Shown piece after piece: positions 32,046 through 35,788 of a stretch of 35,788 bases of DNA. The stretch comes from Kiritimatiellia bacterium (GTDB lineage Bacteria > Verrucomicrobiota > Kiritimatiellia > PWTM01), in assembly GCA_017996315.1 (NCBI GenBank), contig JAGOHE010000005.1, positions 1 through 35,788 on the forward strand, read 5' to 3'. Numbering within the stretch: the stretch's first letter is position 1; each line of letters opens with the position of its first letter. The translations under genes and the position numbers were made by a program. The notes beneath the pieces were generated by a model that was not told where the DNA came from, made no database searches, and saw only the letters and a list, made by a program, of their open reading frames with translations.

Positions 32046-32858
32046 TTAAAGCCCGAGCACATCCCGCATTCGATATAATCCCGGCTCGCGCCCGACCACC
32101 CATTCCGCCGCGCGCAGGGCGCCCATGGCAAACGTGTCGCGGCTGGTCGCCCGGTGACTGAATTCGATGCACTCCCCGGTTCCGGCGAACACGACTGTAT
32201 GATCCCCCACAAAGTCACCGCCACGCACCGCGTGGAATCCAATCTGCTGTTCCGGGCGGACGTCGGACGAAACGCCCGACCGTCCGTGCGCGGCGACCTG
32301 ATCCAGCCGCCATTCAAAGCCCTTCGCGACCGCCTGCCCGAGGGCCAGCGCCGTCCCGCTGGGCGCGTCCTTTTTCATCCGATGGTGGCGTTCCACGATC
32401 TCCACGTCATAGCCCTTCCCCTTCAGAGCCCGTGCGGCGTCTTCGATCAATGCCTGAAGCAAGTTCACGCCCAGACTCATGTTGGGAGCCATGACGATCG
32501 GAATTTGACGCGAGGCTTCTTCAATGGTGAGTTGCTCGTCCTTGGTCAATCCGGTGGTGCCAATTACCATCGGCACCCCCCAGCCCGCGCAGCGGGGCGC
32601 GTTTCCCGCCGTGCCGTGGTGGCCGGAAAAATCAATGACCACCCCCGCCCCCGACGCCGCCTGTTCAAGATTCGTACCGACGACGATGCCGAGCTCGCCC
32701 ACTCCGGCCATCCGCCCCGCATCCTGGCCCCGGACCGGGGAGTCCCAGAGATCCACGGCGCCCGCCAGGCGAAGTTCGGGCGCGCGGCCCGATGCCAGAC
32801 ACGCGATCAACGCCCGGCCCATACGGCCGCCCGCGCCCAGTACGACGACAGAAATCAT
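32046..32858 (-). CDS. dapB: 4-Hydroxy-tetrahydrodipicolinate reductase
   Basis: 270 residues, normal family length. The nucleotide-binding loop VVLGAGGRMGRAL is followed by VVIDFSGH, MVIGTTGL and MAPNMSLGVNLL. The signature ERHHRMKKDAPSGTA carries the catalytic His and Lys, and VGDHTVVFAGTGECIEFSHRA closes the substrate domain. It reduces hydroxy-tetrahydrodipicolinate with NAD(P)H in the lysine and meso-diaminopimelate pathway, needed for peptidoglycan. I chose ATG 32858 because AAGGAG lies 9 bases upstream; an ATG at 32876 would lie before that site. dapA or other lysine genes are not in the window. It is divergent from the PPDK-like fusion gene, with about 180 bases between them. Confidence 0.95.
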   Translation of the reverse strand: MISVVVLGAGGRMGRALIACLASGRAPELRLAGAVDLWDSPVRGQDAGRMAGVGELGIVVGTNLEQAASGAGVVIDFSGHHGTAGNAPRCAGWGVPMVIGTTGLTKDEQLTIEEASRQIPIVMAPNMSLGVNLLQALIEDAARALKGKGYDVEIVERHHRMKKDAPSGTALALGQAVAKGFEWRLDQVAAHGRSGVSSDVRPEQQIGFHAVRGGDFVGDHTVVFAGTGECIEFSHRATSRDTFAMGALRAAEWVVGREPGLYRMRDVLGL

Positions 32859-33037
32859 CTTCGGTGGCTCCTTCATATTCCGGTCGCATCATCGCCGAAC
32901 CCGCCCCGTGCATCAATCCGAAAGCGCCCGGCGGCCCTCGTCCGCAGCGCCGCTCACCCGTCGCGATCCGCGGAAATCGGCGCCATGCTGTGAAAAGATG
33001 CATTGCTCTATTTCCGTCGGGATTCCAAACTAGCCGC

Positions 33038-35665
33038 ATGCACGATCCGTTACTCAGCTCGTCCGAACCGTTGACTACCGGTCTGCCGGGGCTGGATCGA
33101 GTGCTGCAGGGTGTGATGCCCGGCGATAACATTGTCTGGCAGGTCGAGCAGATGGACGACTATCGCGCGCTCGTGCTTCCCTATGCGGATGCGGCGCTTC
33201 GGCAGCGCCGGCCGTTCGTCTACTTCCGATTCGCCTCCCACTCGCCGCTGCTGGCCGAAACACCCGGGCTTGAAATCCACGAGCTGCATCCGGAGGCGGG
33301 GTTCGAGCAATTCACCACGGATGTGCATACCGTCATCCGGTCCCACGGACCGGGCGCCGTGTATGTGTTCGACGGCATTTCCGAACTGGCGGCGGCCTGG
33401 CGGTCCGATCAGATGCTCGGGAATTTCTTCATGCTCACCTGCCCGCTGCTGCTCGAGCTGAAGACCCTCACCTACTTCGCCCTCCTCCGGCACTACCACG
33501 CGTCGTTCGCCACCCGGCCAATCACCGATACCACGCAATATCTCATAGACGTCTTCCGACACGAAGACCGGCTCTTTGTGCGGCCGATCAAAACGCAGTA
33601 CCGGTCGGCGTCCGCCCTGAACATGATGCACGAGTGGAAGGGAACCGATTTCATCCCCGTCACCTCAAGCGCCATCGTCGCCGAACTGCTCGTGGCATCG
33701 CGCTGGCCGGGGTTGCGCATGGACGGGCGCATGGGATTCTGGCGTCGCATTTTCAATGAAGCCCAGGACCTGAGAGAGCGGATTCGCACCGGCTCCAGTT
33801 CCGAGGACCAGGAACGGGTCATGTTCGATCGCCTGAGCCGGATGATCCTGTCGCAAGACCCCAAGATTCTGCACATGGTCCGCGAGTATTTCACGCTGGA
33901 CGACATTTTCAATATCTGGGACCGCATGATCGGCATTGGATTGATCGGCGGTAAAGCGGTCGGCATGCTGCTCGCCCGCGCGATGCTCCAACAACGCGAA
34001 CCGCGGTTTCGTGAATTACTGGAAGCGCACGATTCCTTTTTTATCGGTGCGGACGTGTTTTACACCTATCTCGTGCGCAACGGGGTCTGGCCGGCGCGCC
34101 AGCGGCAGCGGGATCCGTACACCTTCCTCGAAAACCTGGACGACGCGCGAGCCCGCATTCTGGAGGGCGATTTCCAGGACTACACCGTGGACCAGTTCCG
34201 GGAGATGCTGGACTACTACGGCGAGGTTCCCATCATCGTGCGATCCAGCAGCCTGCTGGAGGATAACTATGGAAACGCCTTCGCGGGCAAGTACGACAGC
34301 GTTTTTTGCGTCAACCAGGGTTCGCGCGAGAAACGTCTTTCCGAATTCCTCAACGCGGTGCGCGTGATCTACGCCAGCACCATGAGCGAGGAGGCGCTGC
34401 GCTATCGCGCGCGGCGGGGTCTTCTGGCCCGGGACGAACAGATGGCCCTGCTGGTGATGCGGGTCTCGGGATCCGCCTACGGAAATCTTTTTTACCCGCA
34501 GATGGCCGGCGTCGGATTTTCATTCAATCCCTACAAATGGAGCGAGCACATCGATCCGCAGGCCGGAGTGGTCCGGCTGGTATTCGGTCTGGGTACGCGC
34601 GCCGTAGACCGTTCCGACGACGATTACACCCGGGTGGTGGCGCTCAACGCACCCCAGCGGCGGCCCGAAGCCAGCATGGATGAAGTCTGCCGCTATGCGC
34701 AACGCCGCGTGGACTATCTGAACTTGAAGGAAAACCGCCTGACCTCCGGATACTTTGTGGATCTGATCGAAGACCGCCCCGCTCTTCCGCTCGATCTGTT
34801 CGCCACGGCCGATCTCCCGACGGATGCGCCGGAGGCCGCTCCCTCCTGGGTGCTGACGTTTGACCGGCTGCTATCGGAGACTTCCCTCGTCCGGGATCTG
34901 CGGGAGATCCTGCGCATATTGCAGGAGTCCTATCGCCACCCCGTGGACATCGAATTCACAGCCAACTTCTTCGGCGACCACTGCAAAATCAATTTGCTTC
35001 AGTGCCGGCCCCTGCAGGTGCGCGGCTCGGAGATGATCCGGGTGCCCTCGCTGGCGGAGATTCCGCCCGAAGATGTAATTCTGGCCGCCTCCGGCGCCGT
35101 CATCGGCACCAGTCGCATCGAGAATTTGGACCGGCTGATTTACGTCGTGCCGGACCAATACGGCATCCTGCCCATTTCCGACCGCTTCGAGATCGCCCGT
35201 CTGATTGGCGAAATCAACCGCCTCACGCCCACCGACGGATCCGAACGCGTGATGATTCTCGGGCCCGGCCGATGGGGCACCCGGAGCCCCGACCTGGGCA
35301 TCCCGGTGAATTTTCACCAGATCAACCGCATGGCCGTGGTCTGCGAAATCGTGGCGATGCACGAACATCTGATTCCGGATGTTTCGCTGGGCACCCACTT
35401 TCTGAACGAGCTGGTGGAGATGAATATGCTCTACCTGGCATTGTTCCCCCGGCAGCGGAAAACCCTGTTCCATGAGGACCGCCTGCTTGCGCCCCCGAAT
35501 CAGCTTTCCGCGCTGCTCCCCAACGCCGCGCGCTGGGAGAACGTGGTCCGCGTGCTGGATGCCGGGGCCATCGCCGAATCGGGACGCAAGCTGACGTTCA
35601 TCGCCAACGCTGTTGAACAACAGGCCGTCTGCTATCTGCGAACGGACGACGCTAGAGCGATTTAA
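33038..35665 (+). CDS. KaiC-like / PPDK ATP-binding fusion protein
   Basis: About 875 residues in three parts. Residues 1-230 resemble a KaiC/RecA-like domain: TGLPGLDRVLQGVMPGD at 14-30, then VYVFDGISELAA as Walker B. The P-loop is absent (GDNIVWQVEQ, no GKT/S). Residues about 300-660 are a PPDK/PEP-synthase ATP-grasp domain: IGGKAVGML, IIVRSSSLLEDN, AFAGKYDSVF, DIEFTANFFGDH and LLQCRPLQ. Residues 660-875 contain LGPGRWGTRSPDLGIPV and PDVSLGTHFLNELVEM. The phospho-histidine swivel domain and PEP barrel of true PPDK are missing, so it is not a normal dikinase. Homologous architectures exist as uncharacterised PEP/pyruvate-binding proteins. The final codons and TAA seem to be supplied by an insertion element. 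The longer frame from 32792 overlaps dapB and is rejected. Confidence 0.75.
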   Translation: MHDPLLSSSEPLTTGLPGLDRVLQGVMPGDNIVWQVEQMDDYRALVLPYADAALRQRRPFVYFRFASHSPLLAETPGLEIHELHPEAGFEQFTTDVHTVIRSHGPGAVYVFDGISELAAAWRSDQMLGNFFMLTCPLLLELKTLTYFALLRHYHASFATRPITDTTQYLIDVFRHEDRLFVRPIKTQYRSASALNMMHEWKGTDFIPVTSSAIVAELLVASRWPGLRMDGRMGFWRRIFNEAQDLRERIRTGSSSEDQERVMFDRLSRMILSQDPKILHMVREYFTLDDIFNIWDRMIGIGLIGGKAVGMLLARAMLQQREPRFRELLEAHDSFFIGADVFYTYLVRNGVWPARQRQRDPYTFLENLDDARARILEGDFQDYTVDQFREMLDYYGEVPIIVRSSSLLEDNYGNAFAGKYDSVFCVNQGSREKRLSEFLNAVRVIYASTMSEEALRYRARRGLLARDEQMALLVMRVSGSAYGNLFYPQMAGVGFSFNPYKWSEHIDPQAGVVRLVFGLGTRAVDRSDDDYTRVVALNAPQRRPEASMDEVCRYAQRRVDYLNLKENRLTSGYFVDLIEDRPALPLDLFATADLPTDAPEAAPSWVLTFDRLLSETSLVRDLREILRILQESYRHPVDIEFTANFFGDHCKINLLQCRPLQVRGSEMIRVPSLAEIPPEDVILAASGAVIGTSRIENLDRLIYVVPDQYGILPISDRFEIARLIGEINRLTPTDGSERVMILGPGRWGTRSPDLGIPVNFHQINRMAVVCEIVAMHEHLIPDVSLGTHFLNELVEMNMLYLALFPRQRKTLFHEDRLLAPPNQLSALLPNAARWENVVRVLDAGAIAESGRKLTFIANAVEQQAVCYLRTDDARAI

Positions 35666-35788
35666 GTAATACTATAGCCGCATGAGGCAAACCAATGGAG
35701 GGCGTCTTCGGGCGTGATGGAGGCCAAGGCGCAGGCAATGGCCGCCCATAGATCTTCTTCCGTTCGAGCCTTGGCCGCCCGCAAGCAC
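35655..35788 (-). mobile_element. End of an IS630-family insertion sequence (continues past the window)
   Basis: The transposase fragment here reads out of the window on the minus strand. IS630-type elements insert at TA, and a TA stands at 35653-35654 directly before GAGCGATTTAAGT, which I take as the element's outer end. The target-side sequence is the last part of the KaiC-like/PPDK fusion gene. The other end, the second inverted repeat and the duplicated TA lie outside the window, so the boundary is inferred. Confidence 0.55.
35662..35788 (-). CDS. IS630-family transposase, C-terminal fragment (cut by window end)
   Basis: 41 residues are visible on the minus strand: LRAAKARTEEDLWAAIACA, then LASITPEDALHWFASCGY and SIT before the stop. 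The pattern TEEDLxxAIxxALxxITPED...WFxxCGY is the typical end of IS630-type DDE transposases, after the NPIE/DDE core that lies outside the window. The stop codon TAA (complement at 35662-35664) overlaps the TAA of the opposite-strand fusion gene. Whether the complete transposase is intact cannot be judged. Confidence 0.75.
   Translation of the reverse strand, partial: CLRAAKARTEEDLWAAIACALASITPEDALHWFASCGYSIT

Follow-up and report, generated by a model that had tools for sequence, protein, structure and literature searches.

Genome context

The window, that is the whole stretch of 35,788 nucleotides analysed here, is contig C130 of a genome assembly of 2.22 Mb (240 contigs, 84% complete). 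The gene under study is a real open reading frame on the forward strand which starts with the ATG at 33038, ends with the stop codon at 35665 and specifies 875 amino acids. A further in-frame ATG at 32792 makes a form of 957 amino acids possible; the matches of the relatives begin mostly at residues 1–13 of the 875-amino acid form. The features of the locus are as follows:

33038–35665, + strand: whole gene, KaiC-like part, PPDK_N ATP-grasp and GPGRWG/GTHF domain
33059–33703, + strand: KaiC/FlaH-like fold without Walker A, residues 8–222 (fold matches, motif)
33704–33937, + strand: linker, mostly helical, residues 223–300 (DSSP on the model)
33941–35035, + strand: PPDK_N ATP-grasp, residues 302–666 (K306, R402, S421, D637, E639, Q655, R657)
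35039–35662, + strand: C-terminal domain, putative diverged swivelling phosphohistidine domain, residues 668–875 (model, VIA-align)
35261–35281, + strand: GPGRWGT loop, residues 742–748 (GPGRW in all 16 sequences, drawn from three architectures)
35396–35398, + strand: His787 of SLGTHF, candidate phosphoryl acceptor (73 of 73 sequences; 16 of 16 across architectures)
32046–32876, - strand: dapB (dihydrodipicolinate reductase), divergent neighbour, outside the system

The contig ends 123 bases past the gene, and this end holds a short open frame on the reverse strand (35665–35787), the 41 residues of which gave no match in Pfam; we take it to resemble the C-terminus of an IS630-type transposase. 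Elsewhere in the window, between 13714 and 19562, HlyD-type, AcrB-type and outer-membrane efflux genes lie in a row and look like an ordinary RND efflux operon.

The initial annotation had described the protein as a fusion of a KaiC-like domain, a PPDK ATP-grasp domain and a GPGRWGT domain, and this three-part architecture is borne out by the KaiC-like fold, the PPDK_N domain at residues 302–666 and a conserved C-terminus.

Conservation and distribution

Relatives occur in 47 of 194 genomes of the host phylum, its own genome counted (E ≤ 1e-20). Twenty-five relatives with 45–69% identity align across nearly the entire 875-amino acid protein, so the architecture is no product of chance. A scan of named genomes yielded at least 588 stretches, at least 577 of which encode relatives; the named set is the best 80 of these at least 577, and its record titles span many bacterial phyla and the Asgard archaea. 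With a broader core profile (E ≤ 1e-60) matches were obtained in 2 of 398 genomes in the phylum of L055 (Dechloromonas), one of them being the centre itself, and, with the centre included in each case, in 35 of 246 genomes in the phylum of L057 (Planctomycetaceae) and 5 of 45 in that of L091 (Spirochaetia). The family is widespread but patchy in its occurrence.

Residue conservation was read from two alignments. The first, A1 (26 sequences), takes 25 of the 29 relatives L004–L032 and omits L007, L013, L014 and L016 (one stop reported). Into the second, A2 (73 sequences), 72 of the 80 named loci entered; L039, L062 and L083 (stop in range), L066 (N run), L050, L094 and L100 (cut) and L044 (for no strong reason) were left out, and L112, which is without its N-terminus, was retained. 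For gene neighbourhoods, 50 phylum regions were drawn from the 46 other gene-bearing genomes, some of them fragments or short contigs. The planctomycete set comprises 42 places, 37 of which fall in 34 regions; those left out are G196 (L057 of the named set), G628, G700, G825 and G696:C7. The named and phylum sets overlap in some genomes, for example L092, which is G186 (Kiritimatiellota bacterium B12222, CP120722.1).

A phage or plasmid origin was rejected, the matches being just three plasmid and two unannotated gut records at 23–28% identity. Two unannotated records filed as gut 'Bacteriophage sp.' (MT835811.1 and MT835667.1) encode relatives of the core with 27% identity, and are possibly bacterial contigs filed as phage. 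One relative in the databases carries the name 'PEP/pyruvate-binding domain-containing protein', and among the papers listed by searches of open-access PMC, as distinct from subscription papers, we recognised no description of this family.

The ATP-grasp core

Pfam (E ≤ 1) recognised PPDK_N as the sole domain of the protein, at residues 302–666, scoring 162.9 bits (cut-off 27). In the full-length model (mean pLDDT 86.8, pTM 0.85) the ATP-grasp fold matches rifampin phosphotransferase (RPH) and PEPS with Z scores of 20–25. The ATP-grasp motifs had been thought complete, and alignment A2 agrees: K306, R402, S421, E639, Q655 and R657 are invariant in all 73 sequences, and position 637 holds D in 70 of them and E in the remaining three. 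Counted on the 5fbs row, R402 aligns with Arg117 and S421 with Thr136 of RPH; K306 aligns with the GGK of the dikinases, and by motif K306 and E639 would correspond to Lys22 and Glu297 of RPH. RPH requires its Lys22, Arg117 and Thr136, Glu297 being dispensable (PMC4844700). When aligned by MAFFT with six dikinase rows, K306, D637/E639 and Q655/R657 fell into register in four of the six, and R402 in the PEPS-like L175 only, not in the PPDK rows. The NCBIfam name 'phosphoenolpyruvate synthase' was rejected, as the scores lie far below the cut-offs (the best 52.9 against 883).

The C-terminal domain and His787

R745, W746, E770, S783 and H787 are invariant in the 73 sequences of A2. The GPGRWGT...GTHF elements are conserved. 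The earlier suggestion that the C-terminal part may hold the acceptor site stands, His787 being the candidate. No known catalytic domain emerged from the profile search that the initial annotation had proposed for this part: Pfam was negative, a search of the PDB with a four-sequence C-terminal profile gave no credible match, and hhalign against the His domains of PPDK, PEPS and EI returned a probability of 0.1% (positive controls EI–PPDK 96.6% and PEPS–PPDK 98.3%). The PEP/pyruvate barrel, also said to be missing, is indeed without a Pfam match at E ≤ 1, and the chain stops after the C-terminal domain.

Modelled alone, the C-terminus gave a pLDDT of 93.1 and a pTM of 0.91. Foldseek with this model found nothing below an E value of 0.001 (best 0.01). 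In a VIA-align ranking among the Foldseek top 1000 chains, PPDK His domains occupy seven of the eleven top rows with weak Z scores of 4.7–5.7, aligned over approximately residues 381–510; all Z scores for the C-terminus are below 8, a range which, according to the tool's own note, may mean merely a common arrangement. Two entries share the top place at Z 5.7: the DRTGG domain 2ioj (107 aligned, rmsd 3.6) and the phosphoryl-carrier domain of PPDK in isolation, 2fm4 (119 of 128 aligned, rmsd 3.8). Further rows comprise chaperonin apical domains, LdcA/MccF, aconitase and the small subunit of carbamoyl-phosphate synthetase, which we take to have the swivelling beta/beta/alpha fold too (SCOP). Strands and helices of the model presumably follow one another as they do in the PPDK phosphohistidine domain, and the invariant His787 lies at the start of a helix, which we assume to be the place of the catalytic His in the PPDK fold. 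In the MAFFT alignment His787 did not coincide with the catalytic His of the six dikinase rows, so that the equivalence rests on the order of elements and not on a residue alignment.

The initial annotation had the protein 'without the phospho-histidine domain'. By sequence this holds: PF00391 is absent from the 875-amino acid protein, the hhalign probability is negligible, the family lacks the PPDK motif that surrounds the His, and the PEP-utiliser motif is found in none of the 73 sequences of A2 as against 21 of 24 dikinase/EI controls. By fold the statement is doubtful, given the PPDK His domains among the best matches and the invariant His787. With low Z scores and a non-significant Foldseek result the likeness is suggestive only. 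Going by the model, the C-terminus probably has the swivelling beta/beta/alpha fold, weakly supported as this is, and a hidden phosphohistidine domain is plausible; whether His787 becomes phosphorylated we put at an even chance.

The N-terminal part and its replacements

In the full model residues 8–222 or thereabouts adopt the KaiC/FlaH fold (Z 17.6–20.7 in the rows listed), and a Pfam scan of the 875-amino acid protein for KaiC gave no match. The place of Walker A reads GDN-(I/V)-V across the family, and a P-loop occurs there in 0 of the 26 sequences of A1 and 0 of the 72 of 73 in A2 which cover it, in accordance with the loss of Walker A noted at the outset; the one P-loop regex match, in L060, sits elsewhere.

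The common core (A5, 16 sequences) is preceded by a KaiC-like, a receiver-like or a Pfam-unassigned N-terminus, and both GPGRW and His787 are found in all 16 sequences of these three architectures. Response_reg passes its cut-off in L153 and L156 and falls just short of it in L113. Among 17 receiver-type relatives E187, D188 and K310 are kept in 16 and D257 in all 17, a set which we take to be that of working receivers; Pfam makes no call in the second receiver-like stretch, in which the signature is complete. The third architecture sometimes carries a C-terminal nucleotidyltransferase domain: NTP_transf_2 is above its cut-off in the second copy of L120 and in L152, just below it in L151, and recognisable by motif in L208–L210 and L237. 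Such a C-terminus on the core is reminiscent of GlnD/GlnE-type chemistry.

The host genome encodes a second KaiC-like part on contig C4 (L002:3–1547, - strand), which is followed by GAF and then by a Sigma54_activat domain interrupted by the contig end. It scores 21.7 bits with PF06745, below the cut-off, and a P-loop was not seen at its place. Since this second copy is joined to GAF and sigma-54 activator domains, it fits a reading of the KaiC-like part as regulatory, and suggests that it is a mobile regulatory module.

Linkage to GDH

A gene for glutamate dehydrogenase (GDH) is found no more than 1.5 kb away in 23 of the 50 phylum regions (anywhere in 26), in 16 of the 34 planctomycete regions (anywhere in 20) and, by tblastn, in 30 of the 80 named loci (anywhere in 34), which are the best 80 of at least 577. 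Within 500 bp it was found in 26 of the same 80 loci (25 by a slightly different rule). The numbers expected by chance are about 0.16, 0.11 and 0.26 loci in the phylum, planctomycete and named sets, respectively, assuming two GDH genes per 3.5-Mb genome; the unit counted is the region and not the genome, and the sets partly share genomes. None of 30 PPDK/EI control loci had GDH in flanks of up to 1.5 kb. GOGAT is present in 18, and GDH, GOGAT or NrpR in 43, of these best 80 of at least 577 named loci. Clustering of their ORFs without prior choice gave GDH as the commonest neighbour (30 loci), followed by the glutamate synthase subunits (12 and 11) and NrpR-like regulators (6; NRD1_2, PF01995, in the one scanned), with no other family at more than five. 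GDH is the first neighbour cluster in the phylum and planctomycete regions as well.

The record titles of GDH-linked loci include Verrucomicrobia, Planctomycetota, Pseudomonadota, Spirochaetales, Omnitrophota and Armatimonadota, and the locus of the Asgard archaeon Prometheoarchaeum (L108) also has GDH. The linkage is common to the three architectures sharing the one core and occurs in both orientations, with varied gaps and with different GDH subfamilies; in L092 the gene is 30 bp from gdhA. KaiC types mostly adjoin a GDH 61–88% identical to the query, a kind that NCBIfam names NADP-specific GDH (L164), with L046, L114, L120 and L149 adjoining one of 27–35%. Eleven of the 15 receiver-type loci with GDH in view adjoin a GDH of 58–72% identity, and the other four (L153, L154, L208, L209) only one of 32–36%; that of L209 is nearest to the archaeal GdhA models, yet under their cut-offs. 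The third architecture adjoins GDH of 32–40% identity. In genome G056 a pair of neighbouring paralogues adjoin two different GDH genes, one each; a third copy (L146) has no GDH in view. In the phylum of L055 the single further match (L242) lies 26 bp from GDH, and the Acidobacteria genome of L072 contains a second copy (L243) with GDH to either side. In L143 and L145 (G012, G118) a partial-match copy is flanked by GDH genes that differ from each other, and a full-length copy is close by.

GDH is not in view in 24 of the 50 phylum regions, 14 of the 34 planctomycete regions and 46 of the best 80 of at least 577 named loci, some of these loci being incomplete, nor in any of the six KaiC-type planctomycete loci, two of which are shorter than 5 kb. 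In the phylum sample GDH occurs in 46 of the 47 gene-bearing genomes and in 125 of the 147 that lack the gene (G185, absent from the matches listed, being counted as lacking GDH), and such co-occurrence alone is weak evidence. The host genome has its gdhA, 81% identical to that of L033, beginning at base 46 of contig C20 (L164), and the opening 126 bases of the match are repeated where C198 (L165) ends; there an NrpR-like gene (38% identity, E 4e-69 by tblastn) is divergent from it; NrpR-like genes are near gdhA in several relatives too. With the studied gene beside dapB on C130 and gdhA on C198/C20, the pair is separate in this genome. Judged from the gene neighbourhoods, a functional link of the family to GDH or glutamate synthesis is very probable.

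Proposed function

The gene may control or assist GDH, a nitrogen-assimilation enzyme, and the chances are about equal for and against the product being a dikinase-like regulator or partner of GDH which works by phosphotransfer from its ATP-grasp core, perhaps via His787. The conserved core of PPDK-type ATP-grasp and C-terminal GPGRWG/GTHF domain would bind ATP and would most likely move a (pyro)phosphoryl group onto His787, which could hand it on to GDH, a partner or a domain of the same chain. The N-terminal module would be an exchangeable signal input, P-loop-less and KaiC-like here, receiver-like or other in the relatives. ATP use, phosphotransfer to His787 and action on GDH are steps which we infer, and a gene neighbourhood is no proof of regulation. 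The GDH of E. coli is reportedly phosphorylated on histidine; searches of open-access PMC, PMC10597456 included, gave no confirmation of this, and it does not serve as evidence here. A swivelling domain beside a dikinase ATP-grasp would fit the scheme of RPH, which runs from ATP to His to acceptor (PMC4844700).

Because the N-terminal modules are swapped, we lean towards regulation of GDH over a fixed metabolic step. Such a step would be that of a glutamate- or ammonium-assimilating enzyme that binds a small molecule at the GPGRWG/GTHF site, be it glutamate, 2-oxoglutarate or a product, and activates it through the ATP-grasp, with GDH and GOGAT as pathway neighbours and not targets. It would account for GltB/GltD and GDH of several subfamilies among the neighbours and for the invariant R745, W746, E770, S783 and H787, and RPH, which likewise has a PPDK_N domain, modifies a small molecule (PMC4844700). 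We consider it rather unlikely, however, since the N-terminal modules resemble signal-input domains and are swapped, the other KaiC-like part of this genome is joined to GAF and sigma-54 activator domains, and the gene is missing from 125 of the 171 GDH-bearing genomes in the phylum sample.

If the ATP-grasp merely bound its nucleotide, the protein would be an ATP/AMP-sensing pseudo-kinase which switches GDH by binding, without phosphotransfer. A P-loop already gone from the KaiC-like part and an unrecognisable phosphohistidine motif speak for such a protein, but a pure binder would hardly need K306, R402, S421, E639, Q655, R657 and His787 invariant in 73 of 73 sequences, and we regard it as unlikely. 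The neighbourhood could also be the result of hitch-hiking, through old gene order or shared transfer, the role of the protein being unrelated to GDH; the patchy occurrence (47/194, 2/398 with one the centre, 35/246 and 5/45 genomes) and the separation from gdhA in the host genome speak for this. Linkage in many phyla, in both orientations, with varied gaps, with several GDH subfamilies and by paralogues within one genome makes it very improbable.

Returning to the dikinase-like regulator, we tentatively raise the further possibility, itself doubtful, of a new signalling phosphotransferase in which the phosphate would pass from the ATP-grasp through an unrecognised swivelling His787 domain to GDH or, in receiver-type relatives, to the receiver aspartate. 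GDH joins carbon and nitrogen metabolism, and to our knowledge its control is understood in few bacteria. If the proposal is true, many uncultured bacteria and some Asgard archaea would use interchangeable input modules to set their main ammonia-to-glutamate step, and if His787 is phosphorylated, the C-terminus would be a histidine-phosphotransfer domain invisible to sequence profiles. Since the protein is widespread, adjoins GDH and has swappable N-termini on one ATP-grasp core, control of GDH is directly testable.

Comparison with known systems

As in PPDK and PEP synthase, the ATP-grasp is directly followed by a domain with weak fold matches to the PPDK phosphohistidine domain; unlike them, the protein is without the PEP/pyruvate barrel and its His domain is undetectable by profile. 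RPH (5hv1/5hv3) is the best fold match (Z about 25), shares the PPDK_N ATP-grasp, with equivalents of its Arg117 and Thr136 present here, and likewise has a C-terminally placed domain, its swivelling His domain (PMC4844700). The studied protein differs from RPH in that it has no recognisable PF00391 motif and no reported match to the rifampin-binding part, adds a KaiC-like N-terminus, and belongs to a family linked to GDH. To KaiC and FlaH it is related by the fold of its N-terminus (Z about 18–21), which is a single KaiC-like domain without Walker A. The Bacteroidota protein WP_041525632.1 (L113) possesses the same ATP-grasp and GPGRWG/GTHF core with 28% identity; its N-terminus is response-regulator-like (Response_reg 28.2 bits, cut-off 30.2) and not KaiC-like, and it also adjoins gdhA.
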